Below, one piece after another: positions 4,435 through 17,668 of a stretch of DNA of 20,269 nt. The stretch lies in IMG/VR virus record IMGVR_UViG_3300025073_000187, positions 1 to 20,269 of that record, one strand, 5' to 3'. This stretch comes from a virus. The position numbers and the translations under genes were made by a program. Position 1 is the stretch's first letter; the number at the start of each line of letters is the position of its first letter. The notes under the pieces were generated by a model, which saw only the letters and a list, made by a program, of their open reading frames with translations, was not told the origin of the DNA and did no database searches.

Positions 4435-7400
4435 TTATGTTTGAAATAGTTGCGCTCCTCGTGTATAACCACGTTTTGTTAAACTATTGTTTAATTGTTT
4501 GATAACCTCATTAGCCACGACTCTAACATCACCTAGAACATTTTCATCTAAATTGCCTTCAACATTAATTAAATTTTGAATTACAATATCTCCAACGGAA
4601 CTTATGTTTCCCCCGATTATATTTGTAGTTAAAGAATTTAATAACGAAGACAATCTATCTCCTCGTAAGAATGTATCGGCTCTAAACCCACCCGTAACCA
4701 TTTCTGGTGAGAAACCATATTTTCTACCACCAGTAACCATTTCAGGAGAACTAGGATCATACCTAAATCCACCAGTAACCATCTCTGGCGAAAAGCCTTG
4801 ACCTTTTCTACCACCAGTAACCATTTCAGGAGAATCTATAGGATCGGCTCTAAACCCACCTGTAACCATCTCAGGAGTAAAACCCTCTCGTCCATTACCT
4901 CTAAACCCACCAGTTACCATTTCAGGAGTAAAACTTTCTCCTTCTGCCCTAAATCCACCAGTAACCATCTCAGGAGTAAAACCACGATTGGCTTTTCCAA
5001 AAGTCCCATTATCATTACCACTATCACCAGGAACATATGGTTTGCCACTACTGAAATCGCTTTTTCCAAGAATAACATCTAAAAGATTGTTATACTCTTC
5101 CAATGCTCTTACAGCCTCATTCCACGCACGAACAATATCTTCTTCAATGCCGGAACCATAAACTTCATTCCATGCTACCAATTCTTCATATAAATCTGGC
5201 CCCATTTGCGCCATTCGTTCTAATGCGGCTTGACCAATCAAGCCAGATTTACTTAAAAATTCATCGATTGCATCAATAGTGTCTTGCAAAACATCATATT
5301 CTTGATCTAATAAGTCAAATTGGGTTTGTAATAAGGTCTTTTGGTTTTCGATATATTGTTTATATAATTCATATTCTTCGTCAAGACGATTTTCCGTTAA
5401 TTCTATTTCGTGTTCTCTTTGAGTTTCATCTAAATCAGAAAGTTCTTCTTCTAGTTCTTCCCGTAATTCCAATTGACGCTTTTTTGATTCCGCTGAATCG
5501 TCTAATGCTAGTATAGCCAATTCTTTTTGAAGTTTTTGAATAGATTTATTTTTATCTGCAATTTCTTCTTGATAATCTAATTCATCTTCTTGTGTTTGAA
5601 GAATTTCTTTTCGAGCATCGATTATCTTTTCATAATCTTCTAACTGTTTATCTAAAGCGTCTTGCTGTTGCTTTAGTATTTCTTGTTCTTGACGGAGAGC
5701 ATCTTGCTTTTCACGAATCAATTCTTTTTCAGCTTCTTTTTCTTGCCGAATAAGATTAATAATCATCTGGTAGAGGTTTGCGCCGGAATATGTAGGTTCT
5801 TCTTTGGCTTTTTCAGCCCCACCTCCACCACCGCCACCTCCACCACCGCCACTTTTAGGCGGCTCAGAAGGTGTACCTTGATGCGCATTTGCCCAATCAT
5901 AACCCATTGAACCATATGCAATGCCTTCATCGTCTACTGTTACATGAAAACGAATATAATAATCACCAGCCGCCGCCAATGCCGCTAATCTAACTCTATC
6001 TAAAACAGCAATGGCTTCCTCACCCGCGCCTGACATAGCCAATGTAACGAATTCGGTCATGCCTTGAACAACGGCAGAAGTATTTGCATCAATAAGGCCC
6101 CAGGCTGTTCCAATATCGTCCATCATTTTAAAAGCCGCTTGCTGTATTGCTAAAGCTTGAGCGGGGTGAAGACGACTTAAATCCATTTGCATAACACGTT
6201 GTAGCATCATTCCATAAATAATGCGTCGTGTTGCTAATTCATGTTCAGCGGCAAGTGCATCAACCGCCCTAGAGGTATTGTTAAATTCTTCTTTTAATTT
6301 AATTAACTCAGCCCTTTGTTCATCAGAAAAAGGCTGTGCTTCAACCCTCATAATTTGTACTCTTAATTCCGCTAATTTATCAACAAGTTCATTATGACTT
6401 TCTATATAACTATCACGAGCATCGGTCATACTTGTATCTAAAGAAGCCGCAAGATCACTAAAAAGACCAGCAATTTCATTGCGCGCATCTTCGGTAGCAG
6501 GAATTAAATCATTTTTAATCATCTCGACCCATGCACCAACAAGGTCTGCTTGTATATACAATTCAGCACTATAAGGATTAGCTTCAGAAACACCTCTAGC
6601 TTGCAAAGCAACTAAATCTGCTTGTGCTTGAATATACGCCCTTACTGCTTCTTCGTTTAGTACTAATTGATCTCCTTCAAGTACAAGAAAATCAGTATAA
6701 TCCTTATTGACAGCAGATAATGCCGCAATGTCATCAGCAGATAATTGTTGTCCACTTTGCGATTTGCTTAATAAATCTAAATAAACTTTTAATTCAGTAT
6801 TTAAATTTGTAATTATTGTAGATAAATCGCCAAACCCCCCCGCAATTTGAGGGGCAATAGTTAATGGTTTTGGAAGATTAACGTTACCGCCAACATCTTT
6901 CCAATCATCAACCTCTGATTTCATTGCTCCCCTTCTACTTACACCAACATCTTGCCAGCCAACAGAAATATCAGCTAATACATTAACATAATGTTCATAT
7001 TCAATTATAAGAGACTTAGCAGCAGAAATTTCATTATTTAAAGTCTCATATTCTTTACCCATTAATCCGGTAATATCTTTATGAGTCTCTAAATATTTAC
7101 CTAGTTGAGTTAATTGTTCTTCGGGAGTGCCATATAAATCAACTCTTTGCCACGCGGGGCCAGCCCCACTCATCGTTTTTGCTTCTAGGAATTTTTTTTG
7201 TTCTTCATAGGCGCGTCTATTCTTATTAATGAACTCTATTTCTTCAAATTTTGCTTTTTCTTTAAGCCATTCGATATTTTCATCAATCGCTTGACTATTC
7301 CTATCAATTGCGTCTGAATATAGTGTAATGCCCTCAGTTAACCCACCATATTTAGTATTTACAATTGTTTGTATATCAAGCAATCTAATTAAATCATCTG

Positions 7401-8004
7401 AATTTTTATTTTGTTTGTTTGCTAATGCTTCATATTCTTTGGCTAAACTAGAAAGTTCGTTTTTATTATCGTCTGTTTGACGTTTTAGTTTTTCAAAATT
7501 AGTATAGGTTTCAACCGCTGAAGTATTCAATCTATTAAATAAAGCGATTAAACCAACAATAGCTAGACCTAAAGTCATTCCTCCTAAAGAAATAGACAAC
7601 GCATTTACTGCCGTACTAGTCATAGTGACAGTACCAGTTAAGCTAATAAACGCGGTAATTAATGTATATATTGTACTAGTTAATCCAGGTATAACCAAAG
7701 CAAGTTTAGTTATCATGAAAGTAGCTAAAGCTACTAATGCTATATTAAGAACCCCCAAATTATCTGCAACTTCTAATAACACAATACCAAACTCAAGAAA
7801 TTTTTTTACCAATTCTTCAGTAATGGTATCTTGAACTACTTTTTCCCAAGTCGCAGTAAATTTATTAGTGGTTGCCTCTAGACCTTCCATATATATACCG
7901 AATCTTTGGGCGGCAAGTCCAGAGGATTCAGTTTGAATTTTTTGTGCTTCTAATACTTGGTTGTAATTCTCCATAAGTGCGATGAAATTTTCACGTTGCC
8001 GAAC
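4435..8004 (-). CDS. Tape measure protein, exon 4 (C-terminal 1189 aa)
   Basis: This exon carries protein residues about 523-1711. It opens with V-R-Q-R-E-N-F, conserved in phage tape measure proteins. Two or three hydrophobic segments follow (about residues 600-680), then long helical parts. A run of 11 glycines lies near residue 1240, then a very Glu/Lys/Gln-rich coiled coil (about 1265-1440), then seven PEMVTGG repeats (about 1528-1630) and a final 80-residue helical tail. No lysozyme or peptidase motif was seen. The first ATG inside the exon is at 7974, and a gene caller would start there, but ten in-frame conserved codons upstream show the true coding begins at 8004. The TAA at 4435 is followed by the Dit terminator. 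Confidence 0.82.
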   Translation of the reverse strand, partial: VRQRENFIALMENYNQVLEAQKIQTESSGLAAQRFGIYMEGLEATTNKFTATWEKVVQDTITEELVKKFLEFGIVLLEVADNLGVLNIALVALATFMITKLALVIPGLTSTIYTLITAFISLTGTVTMTSTAVNALSISLGGMTLGLAIVGLIALFNRLNTSAVETYTNFEKLKRQTDDNKNELSSLAKEYEALANKQNKNSDDLIRLLDIQTIVNTKYGGLTEGITLYSDAIDRNSQAIDENIEWLKEKAKFEEIEFINKNRRAYEEQKKFLEAKTMSGAGPAWQRVDLYGTPEEQLTQLGKYLETHKDITGLMGKEYETLNNEISAAKSLIIEYEHYVNVLADISVGWQDVGVSRRGAMKSEVDDWKDVGGNVNLPKPLTIAPQIAGGFGDLSTIITNLNTELKVYLDLLSKSQSGQQLSADDIAALSAVNKDYTDFLVLEGDQLVLNEEAVRAYIQAQADLVALQARGVSEANPYSAELYIQADLVGAWVEMIKNDLIPATEDARNEIAGLFSDLAASLDTSMTDARDSYIESHNELVDKLAELRVQIMRVEAQPFSDEQRAELIKLKEEFNNTSRAVDALAAEHELATRRIIYGMMLQRVMQMDLSRLHPAQALAIQQAAFKMMDDIGTAWGLIDANTSAVVQGMTEFVTLAMSGAGEEAIAVLDRVRLAALAAAGDYYIRFHVTVDDEGIAYGSMGYDWANAHQGTPSEPPKSGGGGGGGGGGGAEKAKEEPTYSGANLYQMIINLIRQEKEAEKELIREKQDALRQEQEILKQQQDALDKQLEDYEKIIDARKEILQTQEDELDYQEEIADKNKSIQKLQKELAILALDDSAESKKRQLELREELEEELSDLDETQREHEIELTENRLDEEYELYKQYIENQKTLLQTQFDLLDQEYDVLQDTIDAIDEFLSKSGLIGQAALERMAQMGPDLYEELVAWNEVYGSGIEEDIVRAWNEAVRALEEYNNLLDVILGKSDFSSGKPYVPGDSGNDNGTFGKANRGFTPEMVTGGFRAEGESFTPEMVTGGFRGNGREGFTPEMVTGGFRADPIDSPEMVTGGRKGQGFSPEMVTGGFRYDPSSPEMVTGGRKYGFSPEMVTGGFRADTFLRGDRLSSLLNSLTTNIIGGNISSVGDIVIQNLINVEGNLDENVLGDVRVVANEVIKQLNNSLTKRGYTRGAQLFQT
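4680..4984 (-). repeat. Seven-copy PEMVTGG-coding repeat in tape measure gene
   Basis: Seven copies of a unit encoding (G-F)-(T/S)-P-E-M-V-T-G-G-(F-R or R-K), spaced by 36-51 bases with variable linkers such as A-D-P-I-D, Y-D-P-S and G-N-G-R-E. The core P-E-M-V-T-G-G is unchanged in all seven while codons vary (ACCATTTC/ACCATCTC, TCAGG/TCTGG), so the peptide seems to be under selection rather than freshly duplicated. Two short frames on the plus strand here arise only from the repeat. Confidence 0.9.
5818..5850 (-). repeat. Eleven-glycine tract in tape measure gene
   Basis: GGN codons encode eleven consecutive glycines between P-P-K-S and A-E-K-A-K. It looks like a flexible linker separating the globular/hydrophobic centre of the tape measure protein from its charged coiled-coil region. 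Third-base variation (GGT, GGA, GGC, GGG) argues against a simple slippage product. Confidence 0.85.
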
Positions 8005-9522
8005 TTTTCTGTTGCTTTCGCACCGTGAATATGCTACTAACCGTTATTCTTCAACGGCGATTAAGTATTTCTACTTAATTCTGCAATTTCAATATGTTAT
8101 AGTTGCAGAGCAGACCATATCTTTTTCTTATATAAAATAAGAAAGATGACGCGGACATTTATATCACTATAAATATCCAATTGGTCGTTACGGATTTTCA
8201 AAAATTATAAAAACTGACTAAAAATAGTGTGTAGTTTAGTCAAATCTTTTCGATAAATTTCAATTAATTTTATATTATTATCTTTGCAAATACTTCTTTT
8301 TTCTTCCATTCGTTTATAATAAACAGGTTTTTCAGGCATTCCAAAAAATTCTATAAATACACTTTTATTTATTACCCAATCAACTCTTTTCAAACCACAT
8401 CTTTTATCATTACAATGTAGGTTATATAATTCTTCTTTTTTATATTCGATACTATTATTTATTAAATAATTTGTAATAGATAATTCAGATTTTGAAAAGC
8501 ATAAATCGTTATTTAAAGAATAATAAATATTAGATTCTCCATATAGTGAGGAATTTGCATCTAATTGTGCTAACTCACAAGCATTTCTGTAACCCCCAAA
8601 ACGCCTTTCATATGTTTTCATAGATGGAAGTCCAAATGCAGCAAGTTCTGATCCATAAGGAGTTCTCCCTAACTTATTGCCTAATTCTTGTAATTGCTGT
8701 ATCATAATATTTTCATCATACCATTTTACGCTCTTTTCTTTACTCTTGTGCAATCCAAATTTTAACGCCATCGTTCGTATACTTTCAGGAGTTCTATTAA
8801 AAAAATATTTTTCACACAAATATTTATTTGTATAATCAGGATAGTATTTTTTTAATAATGCTATATTTTCATCAGTCCAATCTTGATTTATTTTAAATCC
8901 TAATTTACTTATCTTAGTGCGAATTGCAGATAGTGTTCTATTTAATTTTTTAGCAATATCAGCATAAGACATCAAATTATAATTAGAAATTATAAAGTCA
9001 ATTTCTTTAGACGTATAATCTCTATTTTTTTCAACAATTATTCCTAATTCGGAAGCTTTATGTCGTATTGAATCAATGTCATTATTTTCTAGTTTTTCCA
9101 TCAATAAAACATAATTTCCATAGGGATATAACTCCTTTAATATTTCAAGTCTATTTTCAGTCCATTGATATCTGCCTATGCCTAGTTCTGTAACCAATTT
9201 ATAAATAGCATTTTTATTCCTGTTTATATGTTTGGCTATTTCATCAATGGAAATTTTTCCATAGTTATTTATTAAATATTCTTTATCTTGCGTTGTAAAT
9301 ACTTTTATTTTTCCCACGATTATTTCTCCAGAAATATTTGCTACACATCAAATATTTCTAATAAATTATTGTTTATAATTTTTGAATCTTTCCTCGGAGT
9401 TGTCTACTTCTAGAGTTTCCCCGATATGGTCATCTTCTGAAATTTTTATTTTACCACACATTTATGCATGATAAAAAATGCAAATTTCCATATGTCACCA
9501 TATGTTCTGGCATTCTATTTTT
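8005..9522 (-). ncRNA. Group I intron 3 with homing endonuclease gene
   Basis: About 1518 bases between the codons for A-G and V-R-Q-R. P1: exon CUGGU pairs with intron GCCAG (plus 9507-9511), leaving a U.G pair at the splice site. P2: CATATG-GTGA-CATATG (9489-9504), a perfect stem with a GNRA loop. P3: GAAGATGAC (9429-9437) pairs with GTCATCTTT (8142-8150). P8: TTCTTAT/ATAAGAA (8121-8139). The S element AAGATATGGTCTGC is at 8110-8123. A 13-bp stem (8198-8210 with 9373-9385) encloses the endonuclease gene. Problem: to keep the protein frame the intron must end with A at 8005, but group I introns normally end in G, and the nearest G (8004) shifts the frame. The exact 3' end is therefore uncertain by one base. 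Confidence 0.85.
8205..9317 (-). CDS. Intron 3 homing endonuclease, Myb-like repeats plus PD-(D/E)XK-like domain (370 aa)
   Basis: Four Myb/SANT-like helix-turn-helix repeats occupy about residues 6-47, 51-93, 100-141 and 147-190, each ending in a pattern like S-I-R-x-K-x-x-x-L-G. Residues about 206-252 match the homing-endonuclease-associated repeat (L-G-R-T-P...L-P-S...Y...R-F-G-G-Y-x-N-A). The C terminus (about 268-365) looks like a PD-(D/E)XK-fold or Vsr-related nuclease: R-V-D-W-V (D313), I-E-F-F-G (E323), then a helix and L-I-E-I-Y. E278 may be a further acidic residue. The usual lysine after the ExK position is not evident. It would cut intronless alleles so that the intron is copied in. 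The start is GTG at 9317, with GGAGA at 9325-9329. It is homologous in layout to the gene in intron 1. Confidence 0.8.
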   Translation of the reverse strand: MGKIKVFTTQDKEYLINNYGKISIDEIAKHINRNKNAIYKLVTELGIGRYQWTENRLEILKELYPYGNYVLLMEKLENNDIDSIRHKASELGIIVEKNRDYTSKEIDFIISNYNLMSYADIAKKLNRTLSAIRTKISKLGFKINQDWTDENIALLKKYYPDYTNKYLCEKYFFNRTPESIRTMALKFGLHKSKEKSVKWYDENIMIQQLQELGNKLGRTPYGSELAAFGLPSMKTYERRFGGYRNACELAQLDANSSLYGESNIYYSLNNDLCFSKSELSITNYLINNSIEYKKEELYNLHCNDKRCGLKRVDWVINKSVFIEFFGMPEKPVYYKRMEEKRSICKDNNIKLIEIYRKDLTKLHTIFSQFL

Positions 9523-9756
9523 ACCAGCAATAGCATTTGCAACAGCACTTTGTTCTACCTCATTCATGTTCTCCCACTTACCAGCAATTTCGTCTAAAAC
9601 ATCGCCCATTGGACGGAATGAGGTTTCTGAATCACGTAGTTTAATGTTTACTAAGGAGAGTGCTTTTTCTACATCGTTGATATTTGTAACTTCATCTTCG
9701 AATAATTTACCTAATTTTATTGCTTGGAGTCGTGCGAATATGGTTTTGAAGGATTC
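9523..9756 (-). CDS. Tape measure protein, exon 3 (78 codons)
   Basis: Exactly 78 codons, reading E-S-F-K-T-I-F-A-R-L-Q at the start and V-A-N-A-I-A-G at the end, both strongly conserved in phage tape measure proteins. It contributes protein residues about 445-522. It lies between intron 2 (ends G at 9757) and intron 3 (begins at 9522). An open frame extends past both ends into intron sequence (ATG at 9774, stop at 9451), which would mislead a gene caller into predicting a 107-residue protein. Confidence 0.88.
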
Positions 9757-10019
9757 CAATTTTGTTATCGCCAAGCTTTTTATCTTGACTTCTTATGCTT
9801 TTCCATTGCATAAGTTCGGCGTACATTTTTATCCACAAGGGATAACGGATACTCTTGGAGAGATTATATTTATTCACTCTCTACGCTCTACGGTATCAAA
9901 AAACCTTTCGCTATTTTTTTGATTACCTCGGTATTTTCCATTTTTATTATTTGGAGGAATTCACCGATTTTACCCATTCATAATTTTATGCATTACTGTA
10001 TAAAACGGCAATTAATCTT
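9757..10019 (-). ncRNA. Group I intron 2, 263 nt, no endonuclease gene
   Basis: The exon ends ATTGGT and continues in GAATCC, giving I-G|E-S-F. The intron starts after U (10020) and ends in G (9757), as group I introns do. P1: UGGU pairs with GCCG (plus 10006-10009) with U.G at the splice site. P2: an outer TTTTAT/ATAAAA stem closing CA-GTAA-TG (9984-10005), again a GNRA loop at the same distance as in introns 1 and 3. A probable P7 is GCGU/ACGC and P8 is TTATCC-CTTGT-GGATAA. The 3' end AACAAAATTG resembles those of the other two. No coding frame of note; either the ancestral compact form or one that lost its gene. Confidence 0.83.
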
Positions 10020-10179
10020 ACCAATGCTATCCGCACTTTTTCTAGTGGTTGCCGAAACGATTGACACGTAACTAGCCAGCTCGTCAAAGCTGACTCCGGC
10101 TTGCTGTGCAGAATTTGCAGACCTTTGCATAGCACTACTAATTTCTTCCACTGACGTCGCATACTGATTGTCTAATGCC
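10020..10179 (-). CDS. Tape measure protein, exon 2 (160 nt)
   Basis: The exon reads (V)-A-L-D-N-Q-Y-A-T-S-V-E-E-I-S-S-A-M-Q-R and continues through S-A-N-S-A-Q-Q-A-G-V-S-F-D-E-L-A to R-K-S-A-D-S-I-G, a hallmark stretch of tape measure proteins. Its first base completes the split valine codon from exon 1 and it ends on a codon boundary. At 53 codons and with no start codon it is missed by ordinary gene finding. It lies between intron 1 (ends G at 10180) and intron 2 (begins A at 10019). Confidence 0.88.
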
Positions 10180-11737
10180 CAATCTGTTACTTCGAGTTCG
10201 ACAAAACTCTTATGACCTCAATAGAGGCGTTTAGGAATTTCTTCCTAAATCAGCAATTTTAATACCTCACATAGTATTTGCTGTTCCGACTGTATATTCA
10301 CCCTCATAAGAGGGGGATGACTTCAGGATACTTGTTACCAAATACCCCCCGCAGTCTGTAGAGGTTCTTTATTTTATATTTAATGAATATATTCTTCAAA
10401 AATAAACAAAAGATTACTTAAATCTTTTTTATATAAATCCAAAAGTGAAACGTTATTATTTTTACAAATTTCCATTTTATTTTCTGATTTATCGGCATAC
10501 CCCTGATCACGCTCCAATCCAAAATATTCTACAACTAATCCATCTTGTAAAACCCAATCGGCCCTATATTTTCTGTCAAAAAACGGAATAAATTCAGAAT
10601 ATAAAACTTCTTTTGTATATGAAATATTATTATCAATAAAAAAATCAGTAATATCTTTTTCTGGAATAGAATAACATAAATCTCCATTTTTAGAAAAGCA
10701 TCTTTTTCCCATACTGGAATCCGAAAATATATCTACATTGGCTAAAACTAAGGCATTTGTATAACTTCCAAAACGATCATAATAAGTGTCAACAGAAGGG
10801 AGTCGCCTATCTTTTTGAACATCGTCTATGGACGGAGTCCTTCCTAATTCTTCTTCCAATATCTTAAGTGATTGTAATAAATCATCATCTGAAAAATCCA
10901 TCAATATTTTTCTTTGACGAAATGGTTCTATTTCCAATATTCTACAGCGTCCTTCAACAAAAATAGCTGATCTTTTTAATTTTCTACCCATTTCTATTGA
11001 TGTCATATTCACATAATTTTGTAAAATAAATCTATCTTCTTCATCCGTAGCAAATTTTACAGCAGTAAACTTTTCACCATTGGATTTTATTCTATTTAAA
11101 CCCATTTCGCGAGCCTTTTTGCCAATTGCCTTCCAGCTTTTGTTTAATGTTTCGCAAATAAAAATCTTATTTCCGGTTGGAAAATTATCAATCAAAAATT
11201 GTTTATCTTCTTCTGTCCACCAAAATCCAGATTTTACATTTAGTAAATTAGCCATTCCATGAATACAAGCTTGAGTTCTTCCTAAATCTTTTGCTATTTC
11301 TTTATAGGTTTTATGTAAAGAATTTTTCTTTATATATTCTTTTTCTTCTTCAGAAAAATATCTTGATCCATCCGATTTTATATTTCTTTTTAAACCTAAT
11401 TCACTTGCCTTACTAGCAAGAGAACCTTTACTTCTTTTAAATCGTTCAATTAATTTTTCCATTGGCTCTGTTGGATATAATTCTATAAATAAATTTAAAT
11501 CTTCTTCGCTCCAAACATTTTTCATATCAATTTTTTATTACTTCCTTATCCATTATTTTATTATCTTATTATTTCATTAAATATAAAACAAAGTCTTCCT
11601 TCGGTCTGACCTTTGTGAATAGGCTTTAACCGATATAGTCATCTTCTAATCGGCAATATTACAAAAAATTATATCAGTAAATATAATAATTTACAATACC
11701 GCCAACCCATGTGTTACCACATGTTCTGGCAAAACTT
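10180..11737 (-). ncRNA. Group I intron 1 with homing endonuclease gene
   Basis: 1558 bases. P1: exon CUGGU pairs with GCCAG (plus 11726-11730), U.G at the splice site. P2: CATGTG-GTAA-CACATG (11708-11723), a perfect 6-bp stem with a GNRA loop. P3: GATGAC (11638-11643) with GTCATC (10316-10321). The R-like element CTACAGACT (10353-10361) and S-like element ATATACAGTC (10288-10297) form P7 GACUG/CAGUC. P8: CCCTC-TTAT-GAGGG. A 15-bp stem with one G.U (11579-11593 with 10367-10381) encloses the endonuclease gene, placing it in a peripheral loop (P6 type). The last base is G (10180), and the join V-S-K-L-V|A-L-D-N restores a conserved stretch. Confidence 0.9.
10380..11525 (-). CDS. Intron 1 homing endonuclease, Myb-like repeats plus PD-(D/E)XK-like domain (381 aa)
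   Basis: Same layout as the gene in intron 3. Helix-turn-helix repeats lie at about residues 5-45, 57-97, 102-143 and 160-197 (for example W-T-E-E-D-K-Q-F-L-I-D-N-F-P then A-I-G-K-K-A-R-E-M-G-L). A homing-endonuclease-associated repeat is at about 216-264 (E-L-G-R-T-P...L-P-S-V-D-T-Y...R-F-G-S-Y-T-N-A). The C-terminal nuclease-like domain (about 280-378) has R-A-D-W-V (D323), V-V-E-Y-F-G (E333) and E289. The acidic residues align with those of the intron 3 protein. Expected role: cut of intronless tape measure alleles. The ATG at 11525 has only a distant AAGGAAG, so translation may be weak. The stop codon lies in the stem that encloses the gene. Confidence 0.8.
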   Translation of the reverse strand: MKNVWSEEDLNLFIELYPTEPMEKLIERFKRSKGSLASKASELGLKRNIKSDGSRYFSEEEKEYIKKNSLHKTYKEIAKDLGRTQACIHGMANLLNVKSGFWWTEEDKQFLIDNFPTGNKIFICETLNKSWKAIGKKAREMGLNRIKSNGEKFTAVKFATDEEDRFILQNYVNMTSIEMGRKLKRSAIFVEGRCRILEIEPFRQRKILMDFSDDDLLQSLKILEEELGRTPSIDDVQKDRRLPSVDTYYDRFGSYTNALVLANVDIFSDSSMGKRCFSKNGDLCYSIPEKDITDFFIDNNISYTKEVLYSEFIPFFDRKYRADWVLQDGLVVEYFGLERDQGYADKSENKMEICKNNNVSLLDLYKKDLSNLLFIFEEYIH

Positions 11738-12909
11738 ACCAGCTTTGACACAACATCTTGTGTATCTTCCGCTTCCAACTTGAAACCATTAATAATTGCA
11801 GTTAAAGCTTCTGTAGATTCTGCCGCTTCCATATTTCCAAGTTTAGACATCATCATGGTAGAACGCATTAACTCGCTAATTTCTTCTACTGTTTTACCTT
11901 GCCTCGCCCACTCCAGGGAACCCCGACTAATCTGTAGCGTTGTAGACCCTAGCTCTAAAGCCAACTGATTATATTTACTTGCCAACTGACCAATTTTTTG
12001 ACTACTCTCCCCCGTAACAATTTGAGTATTAGTTAATTCTTTATTCAAATCTCGAATATACTCAATACCATCTCGAATCTTTCTCATAGTACCATAAATT
12101 GCCATCGTGCCTACGCCCCATACGGCAATTTTCTTAATACCAACATCTAACATCGAAATAAAGTTAAATCCTGATTTATTAGCACTTCTCATTTTCTCGG
12201 CGGCTTGGGCAACTGAATTACCTAAATTACCAAACGCTATTCTAACATCCTCTAACGTTGCCTTCCCTCTTTTAAATTGATCAAAAATAGCATTATAATC
12301 TTTCAACGCAGATTGTATATCTGTCTTATTAAAAACGTCTTTATTTTTTATTTTCAATCTTTCTAACGCTTGCTCTTGCCTTTTAATAGCAATTTCTTTT
12401 TGACGATCTAATTTTTCATTTTGAGCATAAGCCTCACGCAACATTCTTTCTTTTCTCAGATTATATTCTTGATCCATCTGATAAGCAGAACGATACATTT
12501 GTTCTTGTTGCTTTGCAAATTTTTCAGCTTCTTTTCTTGCTTGATCAATATTTTGAGCGGTACTACGAGATGCTAATTCCCACTTCCCTCCACTTTCGGC
12601 AATTTTCAAATACGCTTGTTGTACCAAATTCAATTTGTCACGATATTGAACGATTGCCCCTGTCACTTCTCCCGATGGGCTTTCAAAAATTTTAACTTTT
12701 CCAAATGCTTGCACATCGCCAAAAAGTTTTTCTACTTCTCTTTTTGCACTTTGAATAGCTTCATGATTTACTCTATCATCAAACAGTACAATTTTTCTTC
12801 CCGCCGCTAATTGATTTAATGTGGCTTGTACTTTTGAAAACTGTTGTTGAAGTTGTGCTTGATCTACAATCGCTTCAACTATAACTTGATATTTATTACT
12901 AGGTGGCAT
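11738..12909 (-). CDS. Tape measure protein, exon 1 (N-terminal 390 codons)
   Basis: The start has a strong GGGAGGT site 7 bases before the ATG. Residues about 120-200 are Glu/Lys/Gln/Arg-rich and probably coiled-coil. The later part matches the conserved tail-length tape measure domain (PhageMin_Tail type), with a hydrophobic patch near residues 262-275, then L-N-K-E-L-T-N-T-Q-I-V-T-G, E-W-A-R-Q-G-K-T-V-E-E-I and A-I-I-N-G-F-K-L. It ends with V-S-K-L plus two bases of a valine codon. An open frame continues 21 codons into the intron before a stop at 11674, but those residues (from F-A-R-T-C-G on) are intron sequence. Confidence 0.88.
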
Positions 12910-14451: not shown

Positions 14452-14481
14452 AAAAGAGTATGCCAAAGGGCATACTCTTTT
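14452..14481 (-). terminator. Strong intrinsic terminator after the holin-like gene
   Basis: A perfect 13-bp stem (14452-14464 with 14469-14481), 4-base loop (CTTT on the minus strand), and a following run of nine T on the minus strand. It closes the transcript of the holin-like gene, whose stop is at 14502, and separates it from the resolvase/recombinase pair. Confidence 0.88.
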
Positions 14482-16810: not shown

Positions 16811-17668
16811 CTATGTTTCTATTTGCATCTCCCACAATTTCTCAATTTCCTCTTTGGAAATATCGTTTAATTTTGCTTTCCACCCGTAAAATTCTATTGC
16901 GGCTTCATTGTAGGCTAGAGCAGCTTCGAGTTCTGTTGGGAAGTAACCAATGTGTAATTTCTTTCTATTATAAGTCAATTGCGACCCCCATTTATTTTTA
17001 CATTTCTGATAATAAACACCAATATATTTACTTGTAGAAACCATATTCTTCTTGCGTCCTAATTGAATGCGTGATATTTTATCAGTTATTTCTTTATTAA
17101 GAGATAATCCAAATCGACAATTCTTTTCACCCTTTCTTGATTCTGATATTCGTCGCCTAGTTTCTTCTGAAGCCGGTTCTCTTTTATTTCTAGAAATACG
17201 CATCTTATGAAGGGTATTTTCAGTATGTTTTTTTCCAAACCAAACACTGTTTTTTCCTCCATTAGCCATTGACAATTTTTGTTTAGTTTCTTCTGATTTC
17301 GGCTTTCCCTTATTTATATCAGATAACTTTTTTCTTGTTTCTACCGATGGGTCTAAAAGGCCATCACCCCCTCTTGTGAGATTATACCCTTCACCATCAT
17401 CTCGATAAGAATTGTAATAAGAAATCCAATAAATTTCCATTAATGGCAAGTTTTCATTAGAACATTCTTGAATTATCCAATATTTAAAAATATCTTTGCC
17501 ATATTTATTATATATATTTTGGAGATATCCATTATCGTGTCTATTCAATCTTAATTCACTGTGATGCTTTTTCCATCTTCTAAATATGTTTTTGGCATAA
17601 CCTATGTACTTTTTTCCATTTAATATATTCTCTATACAATATATTCCACTTATTATATTCTTTTTCAT
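16811..17668 (-). CDS. Free-standing GIY-YIG homing endonuclease with AP2 domain (285 aa)
   Basis: The GIY-YIG nuclease domain covers about residues 5-100: G8-I9-Y10, Y21-I22-G23, catalytic-type R30, E78 and a closing Y-N-L-T-R-G-G-D-G. NUMOD3-type DNA-binding repeats follow at about 105-205 (K-K-L-S-D...G-K, E-E-T-R-R-R-I-S-E-S-R-K-G). The C terminus (about 214-268) is an AP2-like domain (K-Y-I-G-V-Y, K-W-G-S-Q-L, H-I-G-Y-F-P-T-E-L-E-A-A-L-A-Y-N). It lies between two complete genes, after the tail tube terminator, and no intron core is seen around it. AAGGAAAA precedes the ATG. It probably cuts a site in a related phage lacking the gene and so spreads with its flanks. Confidence 0.88.
   Translation of the reverse strand: MKKNIISGIYCIENILNGKKYIGYAKNIFRRWKKHHSELRLNRHDNGYLQNIYNKYGKDIFKYWIIQECSNENLPLMEIYWISYYNSYRDDGEGYNLTRGGDGLLDPSVETRKKLSDINKGKPKSEETKQKLSMANGGKNSVWFGKKHTENTLHKMRISRNKREPASEETRRRISESRKGEKNCRFGLSLNKEITDKISRIQLGRKKNMVSTSKYIGVYYQKCKNKWGSQLTYNRKKLHIGYFPTELEAALAYNEAAIEFYGWKAKLNDISKEEIEKLWEMQIET

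Follow-up and report, generated by a model that had tools for sequence, protein, structure and literature searches.

Using the 20,269-base virus record IMGVR_UViG_3300025073_000187 of IMG/VR (hereafter the window, by which we mean this whole stretch of DNA), we identify a tape measure protein (TMP) gene which, with high confidence, contains three mobile group I introns that would excise themselves from the TMP pre-mRNA, in a domain that appears to have been exchanged between lineages. The gene occupies 12909 to 4435 on the minus strand, divided into four coding pieces, and a near-identical copy (99.99% identity) is found in contig 3300025117_000036 (121,859 bases). In the mechanism we propose, three group I ribozymes would leave the pre-mRNA and join four exons into the message for a single 1711-residue TP901-type TMP. 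Introns 1 and 3 are members of one family, each carrying a homing-endonuclease-like gene in the loop of P6, while intron 2 is an open reading frame (ORF)-less member of a different family, with further members in phages of Staphylococcus and Clostridioides, in crAss-like phages and in cyanobacterial phages. The introns appear to be mobile: related phages either lack them or have different ones at or near these sites, and the domain that bears them has itself passed between lineages.

A first-pass annotation made from the letters of the window had read the gene as four minus-strand pieces amounting to 1711 codons, with two exact junctions and one off by a single base. Joined at its coordinates, the pieces give 5136 nucleotides (nt), that is 1711 codons and one terminal stop without any internal stop; the discrepant junction is that of intron 3, where the boundaries that we favour (Table 1) are shifted by one base. 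The pieces also behave as one protein in profile searches. The PhageMin_Tail profile PF10145 is matched in consecutive parts, at its positions 1-88 by piece 1 and 137-201 by piece 3, and the matches to phrog_4211 are colinear (375-716 in piece 1, 783-843 in piece 3 and 2221-2450 in piece 4). Exon 1 marks the protein as a TP901-type TMP, with 48.4 bits to PF10145 (cut-off 33.2) and 34.6 bits to TIGR01760 (cut-off 28.8); exon 3 by itself scores 25.7 bits with PF10145, below the cut-off. Exon 4 has its counterpart in a long open downstream exon of the related locus L002 and in those of L150, L165, L167 and L183 (626-932 codons). Split phage genes whose products are translated separately do exist, such as nrdA of an Aeromonas phage, and the four segments might likewise be translated apart and assemble without splicing. 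We find this scarcely credible: the only listed minus-strand ORF over exon 3 (9451-9774) begins within intron 2, exon 2 with its 53 codons has no ORF in a list that starts at 60 residues, and in a related locus, L163, a 34-nt exon lies between two introns.

Turning to the inserts themselves, the group I elements named by the first-pass annotation hold up on inspection. A P1 helix with a U.G pair, at the splice site in introns 1 and 2, can be read in all three (CUGGU/..GCCAG in intron 1, UGGU/..GCCG in intron 2 and CUGGU..GCCAG in intron 3), as can a GNRA-capped P2 (CAUGUG-GUAA-CACAUG, CA-GUAA-UG and CAUAUG-GUGA-CAUAUG, respectively); P3, P7 and P8, to which we add P4, are drawable in each, and P3 and P7 form a pseudoknot. 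An automated script recovered the same P1 for intron 2 and ranked another pairing partner higher for intron 1. An omega-G is present at 10180, 9757 and 8004, where the matches to covariance models end. These models, R1 for the intron-2 family and R2 for the intron-1/3 family, describe the 3' half and were each trained on ten family members without window sequence; their matches to all three inserts terminate on the predicted 3' splice sites. R1 matches intron 2 at 9892-9757 (135.7 bits, E 1.2e-28), and R2 matches intron 1 at 10362-10180 (147.2 bits, E 1.5e-36) and intron 3 at 8192-8004 (148.8 bits, E 5.7e-37), the nearest training relative being L165 for intron 3, 88% identical in that region, and a 68% identical one for intron 1. 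The models have low power across families (R2 on intron 2, E 0.0016 with the wrong end; R1 on intron 3, E 0.4). Introns of subgroup IA are distinguished by an extra stem, P7.1, between P7 and P3'; this stem is present here and is double-changed in 5 of 5 pairs in the intron-2 family and 8 of 10 in the intron-1/3 family. The earlier reading of the inserts as a trio of group I introns within this TMP gene is thus supported both by homologue-built models that match every insert and by uninterrupted sites in other phages, and, as judged from these sequence features, the inserts are very probably self-splicing, which in group I introns would be guanosine-dependent.

Introns 1 and 3 share a common core, with P3 formed by GATGAC and GTCATC in both (11643-11638 with 10321-10316, and 9434-9429 with 8150-8145) and P7 by GACTG 10356-10352 with CAGTC 10292-10288 in intron 1 and GACCA 8186-8182 with TGGTC 8117-8113 in intron 3. 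Used as a pattern against IMG/VR, their conserved 5' core retrieved 38 stretches, comprising the two introns of the near-identical contig, seven true homologues (L150, L163, L165, L167, L173, L178 and L183) and 29 that look like chance matches in coding sequence, although two of the latter, L179 and L185, nonetheless passed a loose P7 filter. Two pairs of loci are near-duplicates (L165/L173, 99.3% identical; L150/L178, 99.9%). Across twelve introns, 189 of the 192 cells of P3, P4 and P7 are paired, as compared to a mean of 170.8 in shuffled alignments, none of 1000 reaching the observed value. In the 3' half, 31 of 40 pairs are double-changed (0 of 500 shuffles), the structure in this case being RNAalifold's own, derived from the same alignment. 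R2 further finds introns at sites B0 and B2 in L002, L003, L163, L198, L202, L206, L208, L210 and L211, none of them in its training set (E 1e-14 to 5e-9). Each of these matches ends on the 3' splice site obtained by exon comparison, in L206 on the second-ranked candidate; the match to intron 1 of L163 extends one base past the training end (5453 versus 5452). In nine loci taken as uninterrupted (L025, L027, L028, L194, L197, L199, L204, L205 and L212) the only R2 matches at E up to 1 are at 0.063, 0.31 and 0.34. Searches of named phages by blastn with the 3' cores of introns 1 and 3 gave chance-level matches only (best E 0.8 and 0.7).

Intron 2, with P3 of ATGGGT 9977-9972 and ATCCGT 9850-9845 and P7 of GCGTA 9886-9882 and TACGC 9823-9819, belongs to a separate family. 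At E up to 1, a DNA search with it matched 148 records of named phages, of which 122 are from Staphylococcus, with best E values of 7e-28 to 8e-2 among the 20 matches listed. These matches are located within or next to genes with helicase, DNA polymerase, terminase, major head protein and tape measure annotations. The core from P3 to P9.1 can be aligned over 205-255 nt in ten such loci; in several of these a homing endonuclease (LAGLIDADG, HNH or unspecified) is annotated next to the match, whereas intron 2, within the TMP gene, has no ORF. The alignment of intron 2 with these ten homologues supports P3, P4, P5, P6, P7, P7.1, P8, P9 and P9.1: pairing holds in 97.8% of 536 cells, double changes occur in 36 of 51 pairs, and 0 of 500 shuffles reach either figure. 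The weakest helix is P5 (84.8%). Hand-drawing the structure on a single row favours it against the slid controls. We also noticed introns of this family, absent from the annotation tables seen, in the TMP genes of TPWB06 (L012 5920-6173), LIBA6276 (L015 1994-2282) and ES-S-0173-01 (L020 1495-1783); in LIBA6276 the exon upstream of the intron carries an ATPase annotation.

To place the inserts in an evolutionary context we refer to the insertion sites of introns 1, 2 and 3 as A, B and C. The frame continues unbroken across sites A and B in L150, L165, L167, L173, L178 and L183, all of which carry a homologue of intron 3. L002 and L003 share 89-93% nucleotide identity with the window flanking the domain on both sides. 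L002 is uninterrupted at all three window sites and has a single intron (1584 nt, with an ORF of 385 residues) 8 nt downstream of site B, and the insert of L003 is at the same positions. All three sites are also uninterrupted in Perkons, Sundance and NIIg3.2, and an uninterrupted allele is therefore on record for each of them. A survey of IMG/VR with the exon 1 stretch before site A (alignment A5) yielded 26 loci, 6 with one unbroken match over all three sites (L194, L197, L199, L204, L205 and L212) and 20 in which 260 to 1831 nt of DNA separate matches that almost adjoin in the protein. Ten of the 26, all interrupted, were in hand earlier; the other 16 reduce to 15 distinct loci (L202 and L203 are 99.99% identical), and nine of these 15 newly found relatives are interrupted. 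Among the nine, L188 has no R1 match at its insert and no R2 match at E up to 1, L189 and L192 are part of the R2 training set (R1 E 0.002 and 0.022), and L198, L202, L206, L208, L210 and L211 show an R2 match at an intron outside that set. L210 has a further, first intron with a weak R2 match (E 0.013).

Taken together, the insertions fall repeatedly at seven sites in a stretch of about 190 codons in the TP901 domain (Table 1). The most heavily interrupted gene, in L163, was found via its intron and has four introns, with the above-mentioned 34-nt exon at 5453-5486; introns 2 and 4 of this gene share 96% identity over 105 nt (L163 5453-6755), perhaps because an ORF-less intron was recently copied to another position within it. 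An automated junction search merged introns 1 and 2 of L163, and its top pair was wrong for L206 and partly so for L188, L189, L192 and L211; these loci were read by hand. A tree of 21 intron 3' cores groups them by insertion site, with a clade of five C-site introns (99/99) and one of eight B-site introns (100/100); the C-site intron of L163 lies outside the clade of its site. Among named phages, LIBA6276, ES-S-0173-01, TPWB06 and Geobacillus virus E3 have TMP inserts in the same domain stretches. In E3 (L026 7754-8057) the N- and C-terminal parts of the TMP are annotated as two proteins, separated by an insert of about 304 nt that shares its aligned codon boundary with the TPWB06 intron; both R1 and R2 fail to recognise this insert.

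The exons of the window are themselves a mosaic. Compared to L002 in windows of 40 codons, nucleotide identity is 96-100% in codons 1-180 and 90-100% in codons 542-781, and falls to 47-68% in codons 321-561. Codons 161-300 form another, less strongly diverged patch (69-86%), and single downstream windows drop to about 81%, so that the exchanged stretch is less sharply bounded on the left than on the right. At the protein level the N-terminal, middle and C-terminal parts are respectively 89, 45 and 97% identical to L002, as against 45, 74 and 34% to L192, where the outer parts cover only 156 of 325 and 99 of 598 residues. The intron-holding segment has therefore been exchanged in either the window or L002. 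Co-conversion during homing would generate such a pattern, and ordinary recombination would do so equally.

The junction of intron 3 requires closer consideration. Pairing the U.G at 9523 with the omega-G at 8004 leaves the exons one base short of frame, with a stop at codon 540. R2 ends the intron at G8004 and not at A8005, and the 5' exon end that keeps the frame then falls at A9522. The gene so joined also has 1711 codons, with one residue different (I for V), and we favour this version (protein AIAG-I-RQ), as read from the sequence, over an A-terminated intron ending at A8005 (protein AIAG-V-RQ). As both end sequences recur in two other lineages represented by three contigs (L165/L173 and L183), an assembly slip is not the cause. 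The same intron has a canonical in-frame end (AACAGATTTTG/GTA) in L150/L178 and L167, and the site is thus normally used in frame; AACAGAAAAG is a normal intron end, as seen in L202. Two other solutions were dropped: a translational frameshift, as no slippery heptamer was seen by eye, and a 3' site at 7999, with which two residues before a conserved Q are lost, even though an automated junction search demanding U and G ends preferred 7999-type sites for L187, L190 and L193.

Two rival explanations turn on this junction. In the first, intron 3 would be spliced by the canonical U.G/omega-G rule, making a frameshifted TMP of 539 residues the main or a regulatory product, with the full-length protein arising by minor splice-site choice. 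The intact U.G of P1, the R2 end at 8004 and the presence of the same geometry in L165/L173 and L183 fit this idea; the in-frame ends in L150, L178 and L167 speak against it, no relative points to a use of the truncated product, and we hold it to be improbable. In the second, the endonuclease genes and other inserts would have broken the TMP gene and the exons would be its remnants. The third junction, out of frame by the canonical rule, is what such a dead gene could show, but all four pieces have stayed open over 5136 nt, junctions 1 and 2 are exact, compensatory changes maintain the ribozyme helices, and the relatives with the same one-base-off junction have long open exons on both sides of it. 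Moreover, loss of the TMP is lethal to a tailed phage. A dead gene is accordingly highly improbable, and three introns spliced from a functional TMP transcript in the infected cell remain our preferred interpretation.

The ORFs of introns 1 and 3, which the first-pass annotation lacked and which we supply here as a correction, are located between the two strands of P6 (drawn by eye). They are 28% identical to each other, and both contain the PF18780 repeat. The product of the intron 1 ORF consists of a helical N-terminal part, PF18780 and a C-terminal domain. In an AlphaFold2 model built from a three-row alignment (mean predicted local distance difference test score, pLDDT, 69; predicted template modelling score, pTM, 0.36), the resemblance of this last domain to PD-(D/E)XK nucleases of the I-Bth0305I kind is suggestive only. 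I-Bth0305I is a homing endonuclease of phage-intron origin. Its catalytic domain (PDB 3r3p) was third in Foldseek (probability 0.96, E 0.089) and second in VIA (Z 8.1 over 88 residues), where a mitoribosomal chain came first (Z 8.4). The match, at 15% identity over the 88 residues, leaves the N-terminal and PF18780 parts uncovered. A PDB sequence search with the intron 1 ORF gave a best E of 0.67. L009 and L010 were left out of the endonuclease alignment (A3) as they aligned poorly. If these proteins act as endonucleases, they may drive homing of their introns. Another homing-endonuclease-like gene lies between late genes of the window at 16811-17668 on the minus strand (phrog_314, E 4.1e-35; phrog_5123, GIY-YIG, E 1.4e-14); the region is present in L002 and L003, has a diverged patch at about 17381-16968, and contains no R1 or R2 match.

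Several observations weigh against the interpretation of the inserts as mobile, self-splicing introns that recur in TMP genes. In P3, P4 and P7 of the intron-1/3 family, double changes affect 6 of 16 pairs, a value reached by 30 of 1000 shuffles and so only moderately above them, and pair types are no more numerous than in shuffles, 946 of 1000 of which have at least as many. The Rfam group I model RF00028 (Intron_gpI) does not reach its threshold anywhere in the window or in single intron stretches, and is silent at E up to 10 on whole intron 2 and the 3' parts of introns 1 and 3; Rfam likewise gives no group I match in the L002 insert. As the same model has no match at E up to 1 in a control of four phage loci that carry intron-2 homologues, this negative carries little weight. 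The first-pass annotation had named an absence of group I model hits as evidence against introns, and such an absence holds for RF00028 only, our R1 and R2 models matching every insert. The third junction is non-canonical, needing an A at either the 5' exon end or the intron 3' end. The nuclease call combines a moderate model with near-noise fold matches, two unrelated chains ranking higher in Foldseek. In the intron tree, 10 of 18 inner branches are weak. A preference of the intron-2 family for TMP genes was considered and rejected, for among the 120 examined of at least 120 IMG/VR stretches with the core pattern of this family only L098 matches the TP901-domain profile, and the family is thus generally not tied to these genes. 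Finally, among the best 60 of 231 named domain-homologue records, only E3 (two records) is in two pieces.

Phage group I introns are best known from genes for DNA metabolism, terminase and lysis. A study of Vibrio phage ICP1 describes a TMP transcript with four exons and three introns, proven by reverse transcription PCR, and calls tape measure genes frequently interrupted (PMC10448857). The first-pass annotation had regarded three introns in one TMP as an unusual density; this has to be tempered, since ICP1 also has three (same source) and the relative L163 has four. The ICP1 TMP is not detected by the TP901-domain profile (best E 0.7), and the intron sites are consequently not comparable. 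Its homing endonuclease is of the HNH type, whereas the window ORFs have PF18780 and possibly a PD-(D/E)XK-like domain, and, set against ICP1, the window lineage has sites common to different phages and a mosaic domain. Several introns per essential gene are likewise described, in other genes, in reports on the crAss zeta-group major capsid protein, in five fragments with several group I introns (PMC7886860), and on the polymerase and terL of Bastillevirinae, with up to three group I introns (PMC11878797); the latter source also calls the Rfam group I model incomplete. In contrast to these, the insertion sites of the window TMP recur across phages within one tail-protein domain. Hence, three introns per TMP gene are not new; what is new is the pattern of recurrent sites together with the swapped intron-bearing domain, for which we found no report in the open-licence literature, mostly screened by listing.

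These observations point to one tail-protein domain that repeatedly gathers introns, up to four per gene, as a favoured landing place. We tentatively suggest, as quite possible though short of our leading view, that the TP901 domain is a long-lived intron sink, with at least seven sites in about 190 codons, repeated invasion, transfer of cassettes with their exons and endonuclease-driven conversion reshaping the gene, and that intron 3 represents lineages with a conserved non-canonical junction. Standard annotation splits such TMP genes into fragments, and the Rfam group I model does not flag the introns. The presence/absence pattern and the exon mosaic offer a natural series for testing homing and co-conversion in the evolution of an essential structural protein, and the shared off-by-one junction of intron 3 bears on how strict the U.G/omega-G rule is in nature.

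Table 1. Features of the TMP gene in the window, and intron insertion sites in the TP901 domain of this and related loci (site positions in nt relative to the intron 3 site)
Feature	Position	Strand	Remarks
TMP exon 1	11738..12909	-	390 codons + 2 nt; ends CTG GT
Group I intron 1	10180..11737	-	1558 nt; end ...AACAGATTG; R2 match
Homing-endonuclease-like ORF, intron 1	10380..11525	-	381 residues; PF18780 52.7 bits
TMP exon 2	10020..10179	-	160 nt; in-frame join; aligns with uninterrupted homologues
Group I intron 2	9757..10019	-	263 nt, no ORF; R1 match; DNA homologues; covariation
TMP exon 3	9522..9756	-	235 nt (234 if end is U9523); aligns with uninterrupted homologues
Group I intron 3	8004..9521 (alternative 9522-8005)	-	1518 nt; R2 match
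Homing-endonuclease-like ORF, intron 3	8205..9317	-	370 residues; PF18780 45.3 bits
TMP exon 4	4435..8003	-	runs to stop codon; phrog_4211 E 1.2e-34
Site	-562		L210
Site	-394		window (intron 1), L210; L163 by hand
Site	-360		L163, L189, L192 (by hand)
Site	-246		L198, L210
Site	-234		window (intron 2)
Site	-226		L002/L003, L163, L202/L203, L208; by hand L188, L206, L211
Site	0		window (intron 3), L163, L150/L178, L165/L173, L167, L183

Some further features of the gene and its surroundings deserve mention. Close to the C-terminus of the TMP are tandem PEMVTGG repeats (4682-4983, minus strand), the version in L002 being PEMITGG; judged from the repeat sequences, this difference between otherwise similar genes looks like concerted evolution. 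A 73% identical match to 48 residues of the TMP domain is present in L213 (21-164), a metagenome-assembled genome contig titled Deferribacterales UBA4806, which is possibly a hint to the host or a contamination. An integrase-like gene (PF00589; 12940-13953, minus strand) lies immediately upstream of the TMP gene within the late structural cluster; annotated integrases are also found near the TMP gene, upstream, in Perkons and Sundance, and by eye a similar-looking ORF in L163. Finally, a perfect intergenic hairpin of terminator-like appearance, AAAGAGTATGCC-AAAG-GGCATACTCTTT, is located at 14453-14480.

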